Origin: a virus
Virus record (IMG/VR): IMGVR_UViG_3300021440_000056
Span: 1 to 41,946 of that record
Direction: 5' to 3' (one strand)
Length of the DNA stretch: 41,946 nt
This document shows positions 1 through 41,946 of this stretch, in pieces (within the stretch, counting starts at the first letter, position 1; every line of letters starts with the position of its first letter). The notes under the pieces were generated by a model that searched no databases, was not told the DNA's origin, and saw nothing but the letters and a program-made list of their open reading frames with translations. Position numbers and translations under genes: made by a program.

Positions 1-1647
1 CATATCAAACAAGTTAATCTTAGAGCCAAACAACGCTCCAGGTCTTTCAGGAACCTTAAATTTTATGGATTCCAGATCTGTTCCTCCAATGGCCATTAAG
101 CCACCCTTAGCCATTTTACCTGCTAACATCTCTCTAGCTATAACTGGCAAGCCAGCAAGTTCTGCAGAAGTAATCTGGCCAGAGTTAAATGCAGTAGTAG
201 CTAAAGGCAAAAGCATACTTGGAGTAACGGATGCCTTATTATCTATCAGCGGCTTATATACCTTTTGATACAATGGGAGGGAGGCTATCTTAGGACTAGT
301 ACTATAATCCTCAACTCCTCCAGGATAGAGTAATGAGTTAGGACTAGTCAGATCATCACCATGAGTGTGAACCAGATCAGAGAATGCTTGGTTAATTCTT
401 TCTGTAGTCATGGCATCTTTATCTTTTGGAGATGATGCCTTATATTTCGGATCTAACTTTAATTTAGACTCCACATCCACTACAGTAGCTTTCAAAGCAT
501 CCAAAGTTTGAGATGCAGATCCACCCCAGTTAACTTCTGGAATTTTCTTAACCAAAGCCGCCGCTGCCGAGGGATTATCAAAATATTGAAGCTGCTTCTT
601 AGCAACTCTAGAGCCGGCATCAAATAGCCTATAAAACTCTTCTGAGCCTCTCTTAGCCTCAGCTTTATAGGTTCCAATATCCACACTAGGTAGACCCATA
701 GCAGCTAAGCCTTGATTATAGATAGCCATGCCAGCAGAGTCCATACTTACCCCAGCAGCCTTACCTTGTGCCTGGAGATCAAGATAGTTAAGCTTGGCAT
801 TGAATAGGGTATCTTTTCTAGCCTCATCTAACTCAGCACGTTCCGCAGCTCTTTCAGCTCTCTGGCCTGCAGCTATGCTAAGATCAAGTTGGGTATTAGC
901 TCTTTTTGCCTGATCCTTAGATAATGCTAAATGCTCTGTAGCAATATATCTGTTAAAAGCAGAATCATCAGCCTGCTGTCTGGCCTGTTTCTCAGATATG
1001 AATAAAGTCTTAGACCTAAATCCAAATTCTAGATCTTGTGCAGATGCTTGCATAACTGCAGTTTGTGCATCTATGTGATATTTCAAGCCATCCATTCTAG
1101 CTTGGTTAGCCTGAAGTTGACTTGTAAGCTTAGCCATATCTGCAGATGCAGAAGCCAAAACTGCAGAATTAGACTCAACAGAATCTGCTGCAGTCTTACC
1201 TGCAGCTGTGATTGTATTAAGCTTATTATTAAGCCCAGAAGTGACTACAGTGAGTGCCGTGTTAGTATCATGTAATTGATCCTTAACCCCATATTCTGCC
1301 TTAAGCCTATCTAGAATACTACTAGAATTGGACAGATCAGAATACTTTTGAGCCAAAGCTGATGTTCGTTGTCTTAAAGCCTCGGCGGCAGCTAGGTCCG
1401 AGTTTAAGGTATCAATACCTGCAGAAGATCTAGCAGCGGCTGCAGCCTTAGTCTTTTCAGCATCTATTCTTTGTTGCTCAAGTACCTTTACAGCACTTAG
1501 GTCTCCGAAAGAATCTAAAAGCCTAGCATTTTTATCTTCTAATGCTTGAGCCTCAGAATAGTCAGAGGCCTTTGAGGTTGTAATAGTTTTCGAAAGATCT
1601 AAATATTTGGACAGATCGAAGTCCATTGAAGATGCATCAGTAGGCAT
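1..1647 (-). CDS. Internal virion (ejection) protein, partial at left edge
   Basis: This is an open frame of 549 codons with no stop before the window edge, starting at ATG 1647 (MPTDASSMDF...). The protein is rich in Ala, Lys, Glu and Gln, with long heptad-like stretches across roughly residues 40-270 that predict extended coiled coil, and no enzyme motif I recognise. It sits after a 129-aa gene in the late operon. If the genome is circular, it lies just before the 1622-aa gene at the right edge. By size, order and composition this resembles the T7 gp14-gp15-gp16 ejection set, with this protein in the gp15-like place; that is an analogy from position, not homology I can show. The C-terminus is missing or lies across the window junction. 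Confidence is high for the gene and moderate for the role. Confidence 0.75.
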   Translation of the reverse strand, partial: MPTDASSMDFDLSKYLDLSKTITTSKASDYSEAQALEDKNARLLDSFGDLSAVKVLEQQRIDAEKTKAAAAARSSAGIDTLNSDLAAAEALRQRTSALAQKYSDLSNSSSILDRLKAEYGVKDQLHDTNTALTVVTSGLNNKLNTITAAGKTAADSVESNSAVLASASADMAKLTSQLQANQARMDGLKYHIDAQTAVMQASAQDLEFGFRSKTLFISEKQARQQADDSAFNRYIATEHLALSKDQAKRANTQLDLSIAAGQRAERAAERAELDEARKDTLFNAKLNYLDLQAQGKAAGVSMDSAGMAIYNQGLAAMGLPSVDIGTYKAEAKRGSEEFYRLFDAGSRVAKKQLQYFDNPSAAAALVKKIPEVNWGGSASQTLDALKATVVDVESKLKLDPKYKASSPKDKDAMTTERINQAFSDLVHTHGDDLTSPNSLLYPGGVEDYSTSPKIASLPLYQKVYKPLIDNKASVTPSMLLPLATTAFNSGQITSAELAGLPVIAREMLAGKMAKGGLMAIGGTDLESIKFKVPERPGALFGSKINLFDM

Positions 1648-2988: not shown

Positions 2989-3321
2989 TTAAACTCCTAT
3001 TGCCATATATGTTAAAGTCTTAGACCCACCAGAATTGGTTATGACCATTCCAGTTGTTGTGAATGATTTTAGATATGCTGAACCTCCAGTATCTGGAATT
3101 AGGGTGGCTGTACAGTATAAAATCTGTTGTTTAAATGGTTGGTCAAAAGTTATAGTTGTGTCTCCAGTAGATGTGACTGTTATGGAACCAACCTTGAGTA
3201 TAGCTCCATTTAAGGTTATAGACATATGCTCAGAAGAAGCTCCAGAAAATTCTGGAGTTCCTACCGCCTCTGATTCCATAGTCCTTAAATGGGATAACAA
3301 TGCAACTTGATTAAGACTCAA
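2989..3321 (-). CDS. Small beta-rich late protein, possibly tail-associated
   Basis: A 110-aa protein. After a short helical N-terminus it is dominated by Thr, Ser, Gly, Ile and Val in alternating patterns (GAILKVGSITVTSTGDTTIT), predicting a small beta-sandwich. There is no motif I recognise. Its start overlaps the stop of the 568-aa tail gene by 4 nt (coordinates 3318-3321), indicating translational coupling, and its stop is 1 nt from the endolysin start. A minor tail or fibre-tip protein is plausible from composition and neighbours. Confidence 0.6.
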   Translation of the reverse strand: MSLNQVALLSHLRTMESEAVGTPEFSGASSEHMSITLNGAILKVGSITVTSTGDTTITFDQPFKQQILYCTATLIPDTGGSAYLKSFTTTGMVITNSGGSKTLTYMAIGV

Positions 3322-5024
3322 AATGTTCCTCCAGGATTAAAGATAAGACCTATAGTTACAAGGTTAAATGATCCAGAGATAGATACTGAAACATTAGTTC
3401 CCTCTACTTCACACCATCCTTCATAGATGTCCTTGTTAGATACCCCAGTTGCTAATACTTTAGGAGTTCCAAAGTCCTTACCATTTAAAGATGGAATGGC
3501 CTGAACTTCTGGAGATACATAACTACCATCCGAATCAAGATTATTCATCTCAAAGTTAGAAGATTGTAATATAAGGTTCTTTCCTCTCACATATTGGAAT
3601 CTGCCAAAGATAATCTTTCCAGTGGAGTTAGTGGAATCTGAGATATCAGAATTAAACTCTAACTCAGTTATTGTCATGGCTCCAGATACATTAGAGTATA
3701 ACAACTTTACTGTATTAATATCTTGGATTACATTCCTATGAGGTATCTTTAATCTTCCCCATCGTTTGATAAGTTTATCATATACACTAAGATAGGTATA
3801 GACTAAATGCTTATCATGGGAAGTTGTTTCACTACTCCAATATGCCCCATGAGAGATACAGATATATCTATCTAAAACCTCCCTAACAGGTATAACCCTA
3901 GTGGAATAGTAGTGTGAACTCTGTGCAGTTACAGTTGCATCTTGACTATACACAAGACTTAAGTATCCGGTTGATATGGTTACATCCTCAATAAGACTAG
4001 AGGATAACAATGGATCTATAAAATCTTGTGCAACTATACCTGACTGGCTATCAGATATTATGCGTATCTGGCTATCTGCTCCACAATACACATGTGCAGA
4101 ATAGTTCATTAGAGAACTTAAAGTTTCTGGAATATATCCACATACTCCACTTCTTAAAGTTGTTGAGGTTATTGGAAGTCCTCTAGAGTCTTCTATAAGC
4201 TTAAACTTAAAAGGATACCTAGCATTACCAGTATAGATAGCTGATACAACTTCTGTGGTTGTGTATATGTTAAACCCAGTAACTGTGGGTACACATCTAA
4301 CAATTTCAGAATAAAGATTATTAGGGATTATGGAGCCTGCCCCAGTAACTAGAGATGATACAAAGTCTAGTGGATTGGATAAAGAACTCCAATAGATTGT
4401 TGTTCCATCATAGGCTATGAGGTAGTTATAGGAATTTAATATGCCTCGGATAAAAGTAGAACTTAGGAAATTTGAAGGTGTTACTGACCAATATACATTA
4501 GTTAGAGTACATACTCCACTAGATATTACTAAAGTATATAACTGTTGGCCACCAGAAACTGAGTTATACAGATATGCTACAGAGTTAACAACTGCTGCAG
4601 ACACTGAACTTGGATCATATAAACTTAGTTTATATGGAGCTGCTGGTTGAACTACAGAATAAGCAGTTCCATTATATAACACATAATGTGTATATCCTGT
4701 AGGATCTGAGTATACTGAAAGCAATATAGCTCTTGATACTCCCACTCCAGCTATGTTTACATAACATTCATTGCAATATTTATAAGCTAGTCCAGCTTCA
4801 GTTGTAACTGCTCTACCTACAGTCTTATACCCATCAGGAGTGGGCATAACATTCTCAAGATATATAGCTTGAGGTATACCTGGACTTTGCATAGTACCAC
4901 TAGGGTCTATACGTTTATCGTAATAATTATCTATAGTTGGAACTATAACAGATCTACTGCTATGTCTAACTGAGAATGGGAATTTAGCGGAAGAGAGATT
5001 TCCACGGTATGAGATTTGAGCCAT
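3318..5024 (-). CDS. Large tail protein (nozzle / DNA-stabilisation-like)
   Basis: A 568-aa protein, overwhelmingly beta-strand by composition (Ser, Thr, Tyr, Val, Ile rich, repeated short hydrophobic strands), with no signal peptide or membrane helix. The N-terminal part contains PGIPQAIYLENVMPTPDGYK, a pattern like the start of podoviral tail-nozzle or packaged-DNA stabilisation proteins (P22 gp10 or T7 gp12 type), where a beta-propeller-like domain follows. Repeated YS.SG/YNSVSGG-like strands fit a propeller. It is the first gene after a terminator that ends the upstream fibre and esterase genes, so it may have its own promoter or depend on read-through. The family call is inference; a tail role is likely. 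Confidence 0.65.
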   Translation of the reverse strand: MAQISYRGNLSSAKFPFSVRHSSRSVIVPTIDNYYDKRIDPSGTMQSPGIPQAIYLENVMPTPDGYKTVGRAVTTEAGLAYKYCNECYVNIAGVGVSRAILLSVYSDPTGYTHYVLYNGTAYSVVQPAAPYKLSLYDPSSVSAAVVNSVAYLYNSVSGGQQLYTLVISSGVCTLTNVYWSVTPSNFLSSTFIRGILNSYNYLIAYDGTTIYWSSLSNPLDFVSSLVTGAGSIIPNNLYSEIVRCVPTVTGFNIYTTTEVVSAIYTGNARYPFKFKLIEDSRGLPITSTTLRSGVCGYIPETLSSLMNYSAHVYCGADSQIRIISDSQSGIVAQDFIDPLLSSSLIEDVTISTGYLSLVYSQDATVTAQSSHYYSTRVIPVREVLDRYICISHGAYWSSETTSHDKHLVYTYLSVYDKLIKRWGRLKIPHRNVIQDINTVKLLYSNVSGAMTITELEFNSDISDSTNSTGKIIFGRFQYVRGKNLILQSSNFEMNNLDSDGSYVSPEVQAIPSLNGKDFGTPKVLATGVSNKDIYEGWCEVEGTNVSVSISGSFNLVTIGLIFNPGGTF

Positions 5025-5036
5025 GACATTTCCAGG

Positions 5037-5076
5037 TGAAAAAATACCCCATAGCCTGAGATAGACTTATGGGGTT
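5037..5076 (-). terminator. Rho-independent terminator after the tail esterase
   Basis: Read on the minus strand, the arms ACCCCATA (68-75 side of the 5000s) and TATGGGGT (5046-5053) form an 8-bp stem with a 14-nt loop, followed by A and six T (5039-5044). It lies between the esterase stop (5075) and the start of the 568-aa tail gene (5024). Stem and T-run are read directly; termination in vivo is inferred. Confidence 0.75.
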
Positions 5077-6091
5077 AATAATTCTTTATGAATTTCATCC
5101 AGTCTACAAAAGTGTGACGACCTGTGCACTGATTTTGTGACTTTAAAGAGTGGTCACCTTCAGAGTATGTTTGTAGTTTTACTACGCCAGATGCCCAAGT
5201 ATATTCCCAAGTGTTTTGGACTCCTTTAACTATAGACTCTACTACAGCATCTCCTGGACTGGCAGTAGAAGAACTTCCTCCATCAGTCAGTCTTTTCTGA
5301 ACCACACTCCATTCAGAAATGTATTTTGATAACGAACCAGGAATATCCGCTGGATCAAACTTGTTATCAGCAACAGATAGTGTAGACAATGTTTGATACC
5401 AATAGTGGTCATACCAACTTCCACTAATGATATTTATTGTAGTATCTTTTAACCCATAGTGACCTAAGTATTTGAATCCTGTGGAAGGAAAACTATAACT
5501 CACTGAGTCATAATACTCTACCATAGGTCCTGAAGCAGATATATAATGACTAAACTTATACCCTTCTATGAGCATACGATTAACCATCATACCACCATTA
5601 GAGTGCCCAGCTATGGCTACACTAGTAGCTCCAAACACAGATATAAGGAATAACCTTAGATCTTTCAACATCTGACAATCATCATAACCTGCAGCAATAG
5701 CTCGGTTATTCATCATATGATTATCCCAGCTGCCAGTTCCTCTAGGATTATTTGTAGTTATAGTTCTAGGATCTACCCACCCCATTGGAGATGCCACTAT
5801 AACATTTCCAAAGTTCTGAAGAATGCTCCAGTTAACTTTTTCTGCTGCTAGAGGTATAGATGCTCCAGACACAAGTCCCAAAGCTCTAAGGATATTGTAG
5901 TTTGTTCCTGAGCCACCATGCAAAGTTATTATAGCTTTAGATGAAATAGCTGAATCTGGAACAAGTAAAATTATCTTATGTGGGTGTACTCCACCATCTC
6001 TAAGATTTGGGATATTTACATTATAATATACAGTGCCAGGAGGTGCTCCAGAGATATTGGATATATAAGCAACTAATTTATTTATAGTCAT
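5075..6091 (-). CDS. Alpha/beta-hydrolase esterase of the tail module (PHB-depolymerase / LpqC-like)
   Basis: A 338-aa protein with an alpha/beta-hydrolase core. The oxyanion-hole motif is LHGGSG (His58-Gly59-Gly60), the nucleophile elbow GHSNGG at 162-167 gives Ser164, a plausible acid is Asp216 in GLKDTT, and the base is probably His314 in EGDHSL. The order and spacing resemble extracellular PHB-depolymerase, feruloyl-esterase or LpqC-type esterases. It has no signal peptide. The start codon overlaps the stop of the fibre-like gene (TAATG), and a terminator follows, so the two are coupled in expression. I infer a virion-borne enzyme that removes acyl or ester groups from a surface polysaccharide, or degrades a storage or capsule polyester. 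The first about 45 residues may anchor it to the tail. The fold is quite certain; substrate and virion location are inference. Confidence 0.82.
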   Translation of the reverse strand: MTINKLVAYISNISGAPPGTVYYNVNIPNLRDGGVHPHKIILLVPDSAISSKAIITLHGGSGTNYNILRALGLVSGASIPLAAEKVNWSILQNFGNVIVASPMGWVDPRTITTNNPRGTGSWDNHMMNNRAIAAGYDDCQMLKDLRLFLISVFGATSVAIAGHSNGGMMVNRMLIEGYKFSHYISASGPMVEYYDSVSYSFPSTGFKYLGHYGLKDTTINIISGSWYDHYWYQTLSTLSVADNKFDPADIPGSLSKYISEWSVVQKRLTDGGSSSTASPGDAVVESIVKGVQNTWEYTWASGVVKLQTYSEGDHSLKSQNQCTGRHTFVDWMKFIKNY

Positions 6092-6904: not shown

Positions 6905-7507
6905 TTAATTACCTATCATGTCTGGAGGATTAGAAGTAAGTACAGATTGCCATTCTTCTAAAGCTAATCCCTTAAAAGTCTTAGCTTCTTCTAGTCTACC
7001 TGTACCAACTAGGACTATGGCAGCCGCTTCATGTACAATCAGGTATGGATGATTGATTGCAATCCAGGAAGAGTAATCTGCATCCACAATGCCAATTTTA
7101 GGTCTTTGGTAATACCCAAGGACTATATATTGAAATTGTGTATTAGATCTCATCTGGATAGAAGAGCCTGCCACATAACATACATTAGACTTAATATATC
7201 CATACTCATCTTTATAGTTTTCTGGAGATATTACTTCCAGCTTAGCTCCATCATTGTAAGCACTATCTGTAAGTCTAATGTATCTTAAGGCCCTAAATCT
7301 TTGTAACACAGTATCATTAGATACATCTATCTGTTGGGTGTAGCTAGCACTGCCAAAAGAGATAGATGTCTCCATAAGGTCATTTCTAAAGAACTCCTTA
7401 GAATGATACTTAAGAGTGGCTGACCGAACTGCAGATAAAGTTCTTGCTGTCAAGTCAGGGCGATTTGTTACAGTAGTAACTTCAGCCAGCAATTCGGTCA
7501 GAGTCAT
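6905..7507 (-). CDS. Head-tail adaptor / connector-like protein
   Basis: A 200-aa protein that begins with a helical segment (TLTELLAEVTTVTNRPDL) and continues as mixed alpha/beta, ending in a helix (AKTFKGLALEEWQSVL). The pattern of N-terminal helix, RSATLKYHSKEFF with FRNDLMETSI, then strands and a final helix is like podoviral connector and head-completion proteins (P22 gp4 or T7 gp11 place). It sits between capsid-side genes and tail genes with 1-3 nt gaps, as expected for such a protein. The assignment rests on position and general pattern. Confidence 0.6.
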   Translation of the reverse strand: MTLTELLAEVTTVTNRPDLTARTLSAVRSATLKYHSKEFFRNDLMETSISFGSASYTQQIDVSNDTVLQRFRALRYIRLTDSAYNDGAKLEVISPENYKDEYGYIKSNVCYVAGSSIQMRSNTQFQYIVLGYYQRPKIGIVDADYSSWIAINHPYLIVHEAAAIVLVGTGRLEEAKTFKGLALEEWQSVLTSNPPDMIGN

Positions 7508-29469: not shown

Positions 29470-29558
29470 CCCGGTATGGTGAAATAGGTAGACACATCGG
29501 ACTTAAAATCCGCCGCTTTTAATTAAGCATACCAGTTCGAGTCTGGTTACCGGGACCA
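29470..29558 (+). tRNA. tRNA-Leu (anticodon TAA)
   Basis: The acceptor stem CCCGGTA (29470-29476) pairs with TACCGGG (29548-29554), with discriminator A and an encoded CCA. The T-arm is ACCAG-TTCGAGT-CTGGT, and the anticodon loop CTTAAAA gives TAA. A long variable arm fits a class II Leu tRNA. It would read the UUA codon, common in this AT-rich genome. Confidence 0.9.
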
Positions 29559-29560
29559 CT

Positions 29561-29637
29561 CTGCCATTAGCTCAGTTGGATAGAGCAATTGCCTTCTAAG
29601 CAATAGGTCAGTAGTTCGAATCTACTATGGCAGGCCA
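29561..29637 (+). tRNA. tRNA-Arg (anticodon TCT)
   Basis: The acceptor stem CTGCCAT (29561-29567) pairs with ATGGCAG (29627-29633), with discriminator G and an encoded CCA. The anticodon stem is ATTGC/GCAAT with loop CTTCTAA (anticodon TCT), and the T-arm is AGTAG-TTCGAAT-CTACT. It reads AGA, a codon often rare in hosts but frequent in these phage genes. It lies 2 nt after tRNA-Leu. Confidence 0.92.
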
Positions 29638-29655
29638 CTTTTACTAGGAGAGACC

Positions 29656-29940
29656 ATGACACCTAATCAACAGAAGCAGAGAATTCTTAGCTACACCTTG
29701 TTCAGACTTATTGGAGGAAGAGTTAATTTATCCTTTGGTGATTGGTTAGCACTAGTTGATCCTAAAGTATCTGTGGAGTTAGAACTAGCAGAAGACAACA
29801 AAGATTTTAAGCTTGCACTAGCTATGAACCAGTATATAGATGCAGCCTATAATCTAGAGAACCAACTTAGAAAAGAGTTAGCAAGAATGAAAGAACACAC
29901 ACAAAGTCTGAAGAGTCCTAATACTCCAGATACAAAGTAA
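29656..29940 (+). CDS. Small helical protein, part of a paralogous pair
   Basis: A 94-aa protein with a strong RBS, AGGAGAGACCATG. Its N-terminal segment ILSYTLFRLIGGRVNLSF followed by an LALVDPKVSVELEL stretch resembles the 64-aa gene at 30042 (ILSFYALGKLLGVKV, then ELSPKLQEKLRI), so they look like distant paralogues. The C-terminus is helical and charged. It lies between tRNA-Arg and tRNA-Met. The function is unknown; a helical RNA- or DNA-associated protein is possible. Confidence 0.6.
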   Translation: MTPNQQKQRILSYTLFRLIGGRVNLSFGDWLALVDPKVSVELELAEDNKDFKLALAMNQYIDAAYNLENQLRKELARMKEHTQSLKSPNTPDTK

Positions 29941-29948
29941 CATTTCTT

Positions 29949-30023
29949 GGGCCGTTAATTCAAAGGTTAGAATAGACGACTCATAATCGTTCAATCTGGG
30001 TTCGAGTCCCAGGCGGCCTACCA
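29949..30023 (+). tRNA. tRNA-Met (anticodon CAT)
   Basis: The acceptor stem GGGCCGT (29949-29955) pairs with GCGGCCT (30013-30019), with G-U pairs at both ends, discriminator A and an encoded CCA. The D-stem is ATTC/GAAT, the anticodon stem GACGA/TCGTT has loop CTCATAA (anticodon CAT), and the T-arm is CTGGG-TTCGAGT-CCCAG. It could be elongator Met or a lysidine-modified Ile2; the sequence alone does not decide. Confidence 0.85.
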
Positions 30024-37004: not shown

Positions 37005-40000
37005 TTAACTTCCGCCCATAGCCAACTGCATCTTGTACGCGAATGGGCTAGTTAAAGATGTTGCAATCTTATCAGCTTGGGACTGATTAGCATTCTTATA
37101 AATATTTATCATCCATTTATTAAACTCCGTTTGGTTACCACCGTTTTTCACAAACTTAGCTGCGAAATCTTCCACCTGAGACAGGCTAGGTTCATTGCCT
37201 TGAATAAGTGTGGACTTGATATCTTCAGCTAAACTTTGTTGTCTAGTATGCTTTATAGACTCGTATTGAGTTGATCTATAAAGTGCATCTCGCATAGATC
37301 CTTCTGCTAGGGGTTTACCGCCAGCGATCCTCGCAAGAGTAGCAATGGAAAAAAGATCATTGCTATACATAAAATCCCCTTTAGCGCTTGTGCTATATAC
37401 AGTGCCAGATGGTATTCCTTGAAGAGTTTGTGCAATACCAGCAAGAGGCCTACTGATAGTGTTATGCTCCATTCCCTGAAGGAAAGATTCCCAGCCGCCT
37501 CCATTAGCCATTTTTCCAAGAGTTTCATATGCATTCTTAAAGAAGTTAGTCCAGCCGCCAACAGATGGAACTTCCATTAACGAGGTAGGAAGTATAGTCA
37601 ATTGCCTTGGATTGATATCACCACGAGAATAAATATTAGTTCTAGACACTAATGAAGGAAGTCCATACAGGAATAAATCTCCTAAATTTTTACCAAGAGT
37701 TCCATAGGTCTTGTCATACAGATCAGTGTATTGTTGGTTTCCAGAGAACTTACCAACAATGCTAGTATTCATCCATTGAAACCCTGGCATGGATTGTGCT
37801 CCATATAGAGTTCCTTGAAGGCCAGCTAGCATAGCTAAGTCCTTCTTAGTTCCTTCACCGACATACCTGAACAGATTCTGCATCAGATTAAATTGGTGAG
37901 ACTGGAATAAACCTATAGCCTGACCTATTGGACCTTGAAAAACCCCAGGTCTTTGGGTAGCTAATACATTACCTTCAACTCTATTGACGAAAGTCTGAAT
38001 ATAAGATAATGCTTCCTTTGAGGTCATCTGACCTTGTTTCACTGCTTCATCTGTATATATCTCCATACTTCTTGCAGAGACAAATCTATTCATCTCCTCA
38101 AAAAGTTTATTGCCTGTTAATCTCTCCCCGGCCTCTGCTACCTTAGGAGCATTTTCAGAGAACAACGCCTTAGCCTTAGCAAACCCAGAAGCAAGTTTAG
38201 AGTTTAACTCTACTGAAGTCTCTGCACCCTTGAGTGTCAGATCATCAAGCATAGAGGCTAATTGCTCTAATTGGTCTTTGACAAAACCTTGCTCTTTATA
38301 CCTAGTCATGATAGGTTTAGCAGGATCTCTAGCATCCTTGAACCAATCAGAATAGGCTTGGGCTATTACCTTATTTGGAGCCCTAATACTAGACTCCGTA
38401 CCAGGTAACATTATCTTACCAAGGTCTCCAACTTTCTCAGCATCTCCAGCCTTGATGCCTGCAAAGACAGAGTTAAGCTCAGTAAACCTAAGTATCTGTG
38501 ATCCTATGGCGTTATTAACACCATTAAGGAAGTCCCAGCCTAAGGTGAATAAAGCAAGTAGAGAATTAGAACCTCTGACAAACTTAGTCAATTCACCTAC
38601 TGGAGCCTTATGATCTACCAAAGCTTTCATTGCTGCATCATAATAAGCAGGCTTTATTCCATACTTATCTAGTGCATCATTAATACTATCTAGTTCGGCC
38701 ACAGACGGAGTCTTTGCAAAAGTCTCTTGGATAGCTCTATAGGCTTTGGAGAATGAGGTATCTAGGAGTTTATTACCTCTATACCACATTCCAGACTCTT
38801 CAATCTTAGAGATATCTAGAGCTGTGTTTATCTGATCATAGAATGGATTCTTTGTAGTCCTTTTCAGAACTTCCACAGAACTTCCTAACTTAGAAGTAGA
38901 CGAGGCAGAATACTGGTCTCCCATCTTAGTTAGTTGATCAAACACTGGTTCATAGTTAAGCTTAACACTTTCCCTGACCAGATTGTCTGATTTCCTATAT
39001 AGACTCTGCATGAAATCTCCTAGGAATGTATTAACATCTGTCCTAGGTAAGAAGTCAGAAAACACACCTTTAGTGCCTAGTTCATGATCTAGATAAAGTT
39101 CGTTTAAGGCTTCAGTCTTATCATATAGGCCTCTAGCATCTTTATAGTCCTTAATATTCGCCTTGTTAATGATATTATATCTAGGTCCTAATTGTCTAAC
39201 CTTATCCTCAAGAGCTGTTAACTTTTCTGCAGTTGCTGCAGTTAACACAGTCCTATGACCTTCTCCAGTTACAGAGTTATCTATAACAAAGGAGATATGA
39301 GGATACTTAGCTAGATCAGGTCTAACAGGCCTATATACAGGCTCATCAGGAATCTGAGTAAATTTCCCTCTGGCTGACTGGATCTGGGTAAAGCCTATGT
39401 GCTCATTATGGGAATGTTCCATATAAGCTTCTATAGCTTTAGCAGTAGCAGGATTGTTGATTTGAATCGCAGTATCACCAATGTGGTCTGAAATATCTTC
39501 TTCACCTTTGATTAAATCTTTCTTTAATCTAGAAGGTACAAGGAAGTTTTCTCCATCTTGGCTAAAGAATACATAAGGCTCTGTCTTTCTAGCCATCTGC
39601 TGGTTTATACCAATGAACTCTAGGCCGGCTTCCTTATTACCTGCCAGGGTACTTACATGGCCATAAAACTGTTCATCCAGAGACTTTCTCCTAGCATTCA
39701 TGGTCTCCCGAATGGCATTACCTACTCTTTGGATCTTAGCTCCAATGGTTCCATAGTTAGCATCCTCAAAAGATAATGCTCCGCCCCCAGTACCAACTCT
39801 AGATGCAGAGTTAAGATCCTTATCTATGGTAATCTCTGGGAACTTTGCATAATGCTCTTCTAATACCTTAGCAACAGTATTAGATGAAGTGGCAGCATAA
39901 GCTTTCTCCATAGACTTGTAATGGATCAAGCCTTCATCAAATCCAGCCTTAGTCAGATCATTGCCAGCTTTAGCTGCGTACACAACCTTAACTGCTTGAG

Positions 40001-41873
40001 GCAGAAGATATGCATCTGGATAAGCTGCTACCTCTGAGGCAGGAAGACGTTTTGACAGATATGCTTTGAACTCATCATTATAAGATGCTCTAGCAAACAT
40101 GCCAGCTTCCTCAGTTCCTTTAAAAGAACCATTAAGCCAGTCAACTCTAACATCTGCCATGCCTGCAGCTATATGGTCTCCATAACCCTTATATCTACCC
40201 TTAAGGATATTATCGCCAAGGAGTTTAGCTTGCACCTCATTAACTAGAGCCTTCTTAGACTCTCTGATAGTATTAGCCAGATCCAGAGTCTCACCTAGGG
40301 TAGAGGTAGTACCATCCATCCTACGGATAAGAATATCTGTCCTACCATCATTAAGCGCACGCTCTAAGACAGGTATATCCAGTTCATGAACTATGGCATT
40401 CTTAGGAATAGATACTACACCATTACCATGATTGGCCCATACATATCTATACTGCATAGCAGTAAGAGCTTCCTGAGGATTCTTTTCTATGAGATCCAAA
40501 GGATTAAAGACAGAATCTTTTGTTAGCTTAAATCCTTGCTTGCTTGCAGCAGATATAATCTGTTCAGGTGAGGTATGAATATCTCCTAGATGCTTAAGGA
40601 CATTCGGAGCAGTAAAGATTTGGCCAGCCTCTTCTCCAGCTACTTGGAAATATCTAGAAGATACAAGTCTATCTGCAACTTCATCTATGTCAGCTTTGCC
40701 AGCTTTTACTGCTGACATTAAAGCATCAGAAGCTCTTTCAACTTCAGTATATACATGAGTAGGAGATACAGTTAAAGCACCTGCAAATGTATTAAAATAG
40801 GTATCAGAATATCCAGGCTTAAGAGTTCTATCCAGATTACGTTCTGGAGAGATAACATCAGCAAAGAAATTACCTATTGGTTGATCTCCAGCAAGGGTGC
40901 GAATTGACCTACGAGTATCATTAAGCACACTCTCTACCTTATTCATATACAGTTGTACATGAGCTGGATTAGTGATAGAAGTGCCAGTTGGAGTAACTAT
41001 AGGATTTACAGTTTGCTCCAGATTATGCATTGAGGTAATAATAGAATAATCTCTGCCTGCTCTATCAAATGCCGGTGCAGTGGTAACAAATGGGAGTCTA
41101 ATCTTATCTTCTGCAATAACAGATTTACGAACTCCCCACAAGGTCTTAACGCCCGAGAATACTCCACCTACTGCACCTTGGAGCAAGGAGGTAGTTAAGG
41201 TATTCTTAGCAATATCTGAAAAATCCTGAGAGTCCAGAATTGGGGATTTAAACATGGTGGCCTGCACCATAGATTCCCAAGCTAGGCCTTCCAAGAAATT
41301 CTGATGTAAGCCTGCTCCAATTGCCTTAGCCGTGTTAGCATTAAGCAGTTTAACAGCTCCTGCAGATGCATTGATAGCTTCCTCTGCAGTCTTACGAGCT
41401 ATATCTAATTTAGGTGTGAGCAAGCCAAGTGCTCTGCCCATGTTAACACCTACAAAACCTGTAGATTCTGCAGAAGATAAAGCTACCTGGCCTACATTAG
41501 CAGCCTTCTGAGCTACTCCTAGAGTTTTAATGCCTAATGTTCCTGGAATTGCACTCCCTAATAGGAAGCCTACAGTGTCTATGCCTTCCCGATTATCTTG
41601 GTAATATTTTCCCAGATCAGAATCATAGGAAGATATCCAAGCCCCAGTATCTCTAACTGGAGCATCACTTCCAGATACAAAATTACCTACAGACTGTGCA
41701 GTCCTATAGAAGGAATTATATCCAGAAGCTACAGATAAGGCTAGATATTTTGGAATATTTCCAACAGAATCTAGAGTATTGGAGAACCAACTAGACCCTC
41801 CATAGAATCTATTATGGTTATCAGCAGCATCAAAGATTGCTGTGGATGGAGAAGTTAAAATATCATCAGCCAT
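37005..41873 (-). CDS. Large internal virion / DNA-ejection protein
   Basis: A 1622-aa protein, the largest in the genome, from ATG 41873. It has long helical regions, several hydrophobic stretches (for example about residues 100-130 and 1170-1200 including SLLALFTLGWDFLNG, and near 1430-1460), and no enzymatic motif I can name. Giant helical proteins placed after a coiled-coil internal protein are typical podoviral ejection proteins (T7 gp16 position, though without a visible lysozyme or transglycosylase motif). It would be packed in the head and pass through the tail to make a trans-envelope channel. It ends at the bidirectional terminator. Confidence 0.75.
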   Translation of the reverse strand: MADDILTSPSTAIFDAADNHNRFYGGSSWFSNTLDSVGNIPKYLALSVASGYNSFYRTAQSVGNFVSGSDAPVRDTGAWISSYDSDLGKYYQDNREGIDTVGFLLGSAIPGTLGIKTLGVAQKAANVGQVALSSAESTGFVGVNMGRALGLLTPKLDIARKTAEEAINASAGAVKLLNANTAKAIGAGLHQNFLEGLAWESMVQATMFKSPILDSQDFSDIAKNTLTTSLLQGAVGGVFSGVKTLWGVRKSVIAEDKIRLPFVTTAPAFDRAGRDYSIITSMHNLEQTVNPIVTPTGTSITNPAHVQLYMNKVESVLNDTRRSIRTLAGDQPIGNFFADVISPERNLDRTLKPGYSDTYFNTFAGALTVSPTHVYTEVERASDALMSAVKAGKADIDEVADRLVSSRYFQVAGEEAGQIFTAPNVLKHLGDIHTSPEQIISAASKQGFKLTKDSVFNPLDLIEKNPQEALTAMQYRYVWANHGNGVVSIPKNAIVHELDIPVLERALNDGRTDILIRRMDGTTSTLGETLDLANTIRESKKALVNEVQAKLLGDNILKGRYKGYGDHIAAGMADVRVDWLNGSFKGTEEAGMFARASYNDEFKAYLSKRLPASEVAAYPDAYLLPQAVKVVYAAKAGNDLTKAGFDEGLIHYKSMEKAYAATSSNTVAKVLEEHYAKFPEITIDKDLNSASRVGTGGGALSFEDANYGTIGAKIQRVGNAIRETMNARRKSLDEQFYGHVSTLAGNKEAGLEFIGINQQMARKTEPYVFFSQDGENFLVPSRLKKDLIKGEEDISDHIGDTAIQINNPATAKAIEAYMEHSHNEHIGFTQIQSARGKFTQIPDEPVYRPVRPDLAKYPHISFVIDNSVTGEGHRTVLTAATAEKLTALEDKVRQLGPRYNIINKANIKDYKDARGLYDKTEALNELYLDHELGTKGVFSDFLPRTDVNTFLGDFMQSLYRKSDNLVRESVKLNYEPVFDQLTKMGDQYSASSTSKLGSSVEVLKRTTKNPFYDQINTALDISKIEESGMWYRGNKLLDTSFSKAYRAIQETFAKTPSVAELDSINDALDKYGIKPAYYDAAMKALVDHKAPVGELTKFVRGSNSLLALFTLGWDFLNGVNNAIGSQILRFTELNSVFAGIKAGDAEKVGDLGKIMLPGTESSIRAPNKVIAQAYSDWFKDARDPAKPIMTRYKEQGFVKDQLEQLASMLDDLTLKGAETSVELNSKLASGFAKAKALFSENAPKVAEAGERLTGNKLFEEMNRFVSARSMEIYTDEAVKQGQMTSKEALSYIQTFVNRVEGNVLATQRPGVFQGPIGQAIGLFQSHQFNLMQNLFRYVGEGTKKDLAMLAGLQGTLYGAQSMPGFQWMNTSIVGKFSGNQQYTDLYDKTYGTLGKNLGDLFLYGLPSLVSRTNIYSRGDINPRQLTILPTSLMEVPSVGGWTNFFKNAYETLGKMANGGGWESFLQGMEHNTISRPLAGIAQTLQGIPSGTVYSTSAKGDFMYSNDLFSIATLARIAGGKPLAEGSMRDALYRSTQYESIKHTRQQSLAEDIKSTLIQGNEPSLSQVEDFAAKFVKNGGNQTEFNKWMINIYKNANQSQADKIATSLTSPFAYKMQLAMGGS

Positions 41874-41875
41874 GA

Positions 41876-41946
41876 TTACCTCATAGTACGATTTACAGGA
41901 TTATGCTCATTTCTAGAGGTAGTGCTAGCTACGCTTCTATAGATCT
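41876..41946 (-). CDS. C-terminal tail of a gene entering from the right edge (uncertain)
   Basis: A minus-strand frame open at the window edge reads SVASTTSRNEHNPVNRTMR and stops at TAA 41876-41878, 2 nt before the 1622-aa start. The tight spacing is like other gene borders here. It may be the end of the protein running off the left edge, but the frames differ by one base. It could instead be part of an intergenic leader. Confidence 0.4.
   Translation of the reverse strand, partial: IYRSVASTTSRNEHNPVNRTMR

Follow-up and report, generated by a model that had tools for sequence, protein, structure and literature searches.

A candidate receptor-modifying esterase of predicted alpha/beta-hydrolase fold, coupled to a short fiber gene in a podovirus

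A coupled fiber-esterase gene pair

The window analyzed here, meaning the whole stretch of DNA, is a single IMG/VR virus record of 41,946 bases. Judged by its portal, capsid, and terminase sequences, the phage is an SU10-type podovirus, with EBPR podovirus 3, Polaromonas phage Tiera, and Jamesmcgillvirus PaMx41 as distant relatives. When the two ends are joined, a minus-strand open reading frame (ORF) that runs off the start of the window (1-1647) stays open as far as a stop at 41929, shortly ahead of the next ATG, which is at 41873; the genome is probably near complete and circularly permuted. The 1622-aa ORF on the minus strand at 37005-41873 lacks a convincing Pfam match; its place corresponds to that of the giant structural proteins in PaMx41 and Tiera, and it probably encodes a protein internal to the virion. 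Three tRNA genes (Leu-TAA, Arg-TCT, and Met-CAT) lie amid plus-strand genes at 29470-30023.

Two genes of the tail region, a short fiber-like gene and an esterase gene beginning with ATG, are the subject of this study (Table 1). A first-pass annotation, made from the sequence alone, had reported the esterase ORF without naming a strand and had described it as translationally coupled to the fiber gene and closed by its own terminator. The ORF was confirmed, on the minus strand, and both features of its context were found. The final A of the TAA stop of the fiber ORF is the first base of the esterase ATG, a 1-nucleotide overlap (TAATG). Downstream of the esterase, a hairpin at 5046-5075 (−16.1 kcal/mol; z score of −4.0; equaled by none of the shuffled sequences) is followed by a run of T residues. 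This hairpin was absent from the output of a consensus terminator scanner, presumably owing to the loop-size limits of that program. The GC content and third-position GC content of the esterase gene resemble those of neighboring genes, so it gives no impression of having been acquired very recently.

Table 1. Features of the fiber-esterase locus and its borders, in window coordinates
Feature	Position	Strand	Evidence or remark
Alpha/beta-hydrolase esterase gene (predicted), 338 aa	5075..6091	-	ORF, homologs, AlphaFold2 pTM 0.88, PDB fold matches
LHGGSG, residues 57-62, likely oxyanion loop	5906..5923	-	His58, Gly59, and Gly62 nearly invariant
GHSNGG, residues 162-167, nucleophile elbow	5591..5608	-	Ser164 codon at 5600-5602; invariant in 15 homologs
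Asp216 codon, putative catalytic acid (GLKDTT)	5444..5446	-	invariant in 15 homologs
His314 codon, putative catalytic base, in GDHSL (residues 312-316)	5150..5152	-	invariant in 15 homologs
Short tail-fiber gene, 270 aa	6091..6903	-	phrog_11393 tail fiber protein, E 1e-5; MGGIWNP anchor-like motif; C-terminal fiber module at about 100-269
Intrinsic terminator ending the fiber-esterase pair	5039..5075	-	hairpin 5046-5075 plus T run
Head-tail adaptor-like gene, left border of slot	6905..7507	-	SU10_adaptor, E 7e-4; present in 80 of 80 relatives
Conserved 568-aa tail gene, right border of slot	3318..5024	-	homolog in 49 related contigs

Fold, catalytic residues, and relatives of the esterase

Searches with the single esterase sequence were nearly blank. 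PHROGs and PDB sequence searches gave no match, and the family models Lipase_2 and NF050058 were matched just below the cutoff and weakly, respectively. The first-pass annotation had called for a structure prediction and a comparison with esterases. With a 15-sequence alignment as input, AlphaFold2 gave a model (pLDDT 84.6; pTM 0.88) that has a single domain, with disorder confined to residues 1 to 14. Comparison with the PDB returned 293 fold matches at an E value of ≤0.001, led by a feruloyl esterase (8iy8; E 9e-8) and including many other alpha/beta hydrolases at lower ranks. In the sequence-profile comparison, too, the family was matched best by a feruloyl esterase (9j07; E 3e-4). With a TM-score of 0.47 to 0.56 and 13% identity to 8iy8, however, the substrate preference of feruloyl esterases is not transferable to the phage protein. 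On the strength of this model, we are confident in predicting an alpha/beta-hydrolase fold with a nucleophile elbow and the residues Ser, Asp, and His in the expected order.

The motifs GHSNGG (with Ser164), LHGGSG, and a late GDHSL were all found where the first-pass annotation had put them. That annotation had inferred a complete catalytic set but left the acid unnamed; the alpha/beta-hydrolase pattern points to Asp216. The alignment of 15 sequences shows no variation at Ser164, Asp216, or His314. The same is true of W122, N124, and M127, which belong to a W-x-N-x-x-M signature kept in all 15 members. The model places Ser164 between a strand (157-163) and a helix (165-175), and LHGGSG, by analogy with the family, is likely to form the oxyanion loop. 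We regard the catalytic set as exceeding chance, because homologs of 22 to 45% identity retain the triad and the predicted fold is confidently that of an alpha/beta hydrolase. The same conservation bears on whether the protein is still an enzyme. Receptor-binding proteins can lose catalysis, and the protein could be a binding module that has retained its fold but lost its enzymatic action; the invariance of the triad and its surrounding motif throughout a divergent family leaves this explanation only a slim chance.

The first-pass annotation had placed the protein with PHB-depolymerase/LpqC-like esterases and had considered polyester as a possible substrate. What stands is its membership, by sequence and predicted fold, in the PHB-depolymerase/LpqC/feruloyl-esterase neighborhood of alpha/beta hydrolases. 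The short-chain PHA depolymerase model NF050058 is the commonest NCBIfam match (14 of the 15 aligned members; best E value, 6e-18), always as remote homology, and the kinship extends to the fold and the Ser-Asp-His order. A strict PHB/PHA depolymerase was rejected: the window protein scores 16.9 bits against an NF050058 cutoff of 150, and TIGR01840, the model for PHB-depolymerase family esterases, gave no match to it at an E value of 0.01. Nor does the protein carry the hallmarks of extracellular PHB/PHA depolymerases that were looked for, as its N terminus has no lipobox or other export signal and its single-domain, 338-aa model has no substrate-binding domain. The label "PHB-depolymerase-like" is thus fair, on sequence comparison, as remote homology only, and polyester as the substrate is not supported. 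Two further assignments were rejected. Lipase class 2 (PF01674) reached 19.8 bits against a gathering score of 20.3 over just 59 residues, and an SGNH/GDSL hydrolase is inconsistent with both the predicted alpha/beta-hydrolase fold and the failure of any GDSL model to match. The closest PHROGs model, phrog_789 ("esterase/lipase"), is weak; it matched some family members at 8e-4 but not the window protein.

Relatives of the esterase proved sparse. Pattern scans of viral and genome contigs with the lone esterase protein found none, while a degenerate DNA pattern for GHSNGGMM hit eight viral contigs, five of them with true homologs (E 1e-77 to 1e-11). A second motif pattern yielded no further esterase homologs. 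When 50,697 phage records were searched by tblastn, the window esterase had no match at an E value of ≤1, and two phage homologs and one bacterial homolog likewise had none; no isolate phage was matched. A profile search of genome contigs recovered about ten bacterial relatives, mostly secreted, and one of 369 and 399 bacterial genomes recovered the seed genomes alone. In the resulting tree, where the copy on contig L018 forms a long branch and calls for caution, the phage copies make up one clade (support, 99/96), whose neighbors are bacterial proteins, mostly with export signals.

The bacterial relatives, from Solimonas, Nevskia, Nitrosomonas, and Myxococcota, align with the phage esterase over the domain from end to end at 22 to 31% identity and share the triad and W-x-N-x-x-M. 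Unlike the phage copies, which form a separate clade and lack export signals, they mostly have lipoprotein or Sec signals, with a lipobox in most of the neighboring proteins, and are encoded outside phage modules. Since these relatives are mostly secreted, the substrate of the wider family is, as far as sequence can indicate, probably extracellular. This distribution also speaks to the idea of an intracellular auxiliary metabolic enzyme that would, for example, draw on polyhydroxyalkanoate or another ester reserve of the infected host. The prevalence of NF050058 among family matches is what recommends it, but the score of the window protein lies far below the cutoff of that model, the secreted bacterial relatives are not intracellular depolymerases, and the gene sits in a tail slot rather than among metabolic or early genes; we consider such a role highly unlikely.

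Two groups of more distant proteins were noted. Three T7-like contigs encode shorter alpha/beta hydrolases of 211 to 226 aa with GHSNGGMM (L012:4706-5341, L013:3129-3809, and L016:4183-4818), situated between a fiber-like gene and large late genes; they are only remotely related and group outside the esterase clade. Fold comparison also pointed to regions with an alpha/beta-hydrolase-like fold in the cyanophage BFVD entries A0A1D7SKQ1, V5URI3, and A0A6M2ZI79 (573, 974, and 368 aa, respectively), one of which is annotated as a tail fiber.

Some Arthrobacter phage esterases appeared among weak fold matches. Phage alpha/beta-hydrolase esterases of the LysB kind exist in mycobacteriophages, and a LysB-like lysis esterase, which would attack the cell envelope late in infection, was weighed. 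The relatives of the window phage for which a host is known infect Gram-negative bacteria, in which, to our knowledge, LysB has no known substrate; in addition, the phage encodes an M15 endolysin elsewhere (2523-2987), and cutinase-type models have no sequence match to the esterase. We judge this the least credible of the alternatives.

The receptor-binding slot and its occupants

To place the gene pair in context, the capsid protein was used as a profile, which retrieved 414 related viral stretches; 80 were taken for comparison. The adaptor-like gene and the conserved 568-aa tail gene, which has no Pfam or PHROGs match and is possibly the nozzle, were both located in 50 contigs, including the window (some being near-duplicates or the same contig twice). 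The slot between them holds at least one protein in all but 3 of the 50 contigs. In those three (L073, L083, and L121) the slot is empty, so their receptor-binding protein is encoded elsewhere or fused. Among 48 slot proteins scanned, a pectate-lyase model matched nine, Beta_helix five, and GDSL lipase one (these counts may overlap), and many have matches in PHROGs families for tail spikes or tail fibers. The first slot protein usually starts with MSASIWNPG, MSASIWAPG, or MTASLFG, which the MGGIWNP start of the window fiber resembles. We conclude from the comparison with 49 related contigs, near-duplicates among them, that the esterase gene lies in the receptor-binding slot, in agreement with the tail-module placement given in the first-pass annotation.

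The occupants of this slot differ in kind. The beta-helix tailspikes of L002, L004, and others occupy the gene slot that holds the window pair, and the first protein there has an N-terminal motif like that of the window fiber, but these tailspikes are lyase- or glycosidase-like and fused to their anchor, whereas the window enzyme is a predicted esterase on a separate chain. An alpha/beta hydrolase was found in the slot of the window only among the 50 contigs. In one related podovirus, the slot contains an SGNH/GDSL esterase preceded by an MTNLFGGG anchor motif (L058:6391-8007), and it can therefore be filled by an esterase.

The pairing of esterase and fiber recurs outside this group, as known from a few contigs: five homologs besides the window, one of which (L019) lies on a contig that ends upstream of the esterase, with a portal-like gene downstream. 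In L014, L017, and L018, a fiber-like protein of 265 to 311 aa is encoded upstream, and the esterase starts 2 nucleotides after, 1 nucleotide within, and 4 nucleotides within the end of that gene, respectively. In L015, the esterase lies 14 nucleotides upstream of a P2-type tail-collar fiber. Similarity of the window fiber to its counterparts in L018 (E 7e-13) and L014 (E 2e-6) is confined to the C-terminal half, the N termini being different; the L017 fiber has no significant similarity to it. The C-terminal module of the window fiber also has weak matches in annotated tail fibers of Burkholderia and Klebsiella phages. The N terminus of the L018 fiber is shared with a spike-like protein just downstream (E 8e-6), which supports an anchor role for it. 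In L014, the pair is an insertion in the head module, in the interval from the portal to the head protease; it lies beside a second fiber-like protein and between the protease and what we read from sequence as a minor head protein, and it may serve there as a head decoration.

A proposed role in receptor modification

We propose that the esterase is probably a virion-associated, receptor-modifying enzyme, because its placement in a tailspike slot, its coupling to a fiber gene, and its recurring partner fit this reading best. The N-terminal motif of the short fiber would fasten it to the tail, and the esterase, translated in coupling with it, would be seated on or beside the fiber. The model of the fiber itself is poor (pLDDT 41; pTM 0.36) and gives no basis for a mode of joining. 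At contact with the host, the enzyme would hydrolyze ester-linked acyl groups, most likely O-acetyl groups on a surface polysaccharide (O-antigen, capsule, or exopolysaccharide), through chemistry that the fold suggests: an acyl-enzyme at Ser164, with His314 as base and Asp216 as acid. Deacylation would then let the virion pass or bind. Three observations make an O-acyl group on surface polysaccharide appear the likeliest substrate, though we hold this less firmly than the virion role itself: carbohydrate esterases are among the nearest folds, the related bacterial proteins are exported, and the slot of one relative contains an SGNH enzyme. Polyesters, lipids, and acyl groups on proteins are possible alternatives.

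Against a virion role, the esterase is a separate chain with no recognizable anchor of its own, while the slot enzymes of relatives are mostly fused to one. An alternative explanation could be that it is a nonvirion late enzyme, merely cotranscribed with tail genes and freed at lysis to degrade capsule, exopolysaccharide, or lipids for the spread of progeny. The lack of an anchor, the terminator directly behind the gene, and the presence of endolysin and holin genes in the same late region are consistent with such release. Direct coupling to a fiber gene is nevertheless conserved in four phages with differing anchors and structural modules, and the esterase occupies the tailspike slot rather than a place beside the lysis genes. 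We consider release at lysis unlikely, if the most credible of the competing explanations, and favor the virion-associated enzyme.

Esterases in receptor-binding positions are known. Aristophanes gp41 is a receptor-modifying SGNH tailspike esterase (PMC8471582), Klebsiella prophage fibers are SGNH esterases described in a study that also cites G7C gp63.1 (PMC13123978), other prophage SGNH esterases have been described (PMC12115436), and esterase activity has been reported for the Moo19 and B2 spikes, with no fold stated (PMC11654681). The window enzyme is like these SGNH/GDSL deacetylase tailspikes in its gene position and in the proposed removal of O-acyl groups from a surface glycan. It differs in being, by prediction, an alpha/beta hydrolase on a separate chain behind a short fiber, whereas the known examples with a stated fold are SGNH enzymes. 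Within the part of the literature covered, no alpha/beta hydrolase was found described in a tail receptor-binding position, a weak indication in itself, and a search for PHB depolymerase or feruloyl esterase with phage receptor binding, of similarly partial coverage, returned nothing relevant. The papers found describe SGNH esterases, in line with the rarity that the first-pass annotation had ascribed to such a fold in this place. The type of function is thus already known, whereas the fold in this role, its arrangement on two chains, and the family have no known counterpart.

More tentatively, and with the odds somewhat against it, the pair may represent a mobile two-chain device, in which a short fiber with an exchangeable anchor carries a noncovalently docked alpha/beta hydrolase that deacylates a polymer of the host surface. 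Such a device would have spread to podoviruses, a P2-like phage, and one phage in which it is inserted in the head module. That the fiber-esterase pair recurs in unrelated phages points to a type of virion enzyme, so far overlooked, that would remove acyl groups from the surface of the host. Because this esterase family has no PHROGs model, it escapes annotation, which leaves host-range prediction from tail enzymes incomplete. A small coupled pair of this kind offers a direct test of whether receptor-binding enzymes are exchanged as two-gene units. If the proposed role is true, a second fold, independently evolved beside SGNH, would have been recruited for receptor deacylation.
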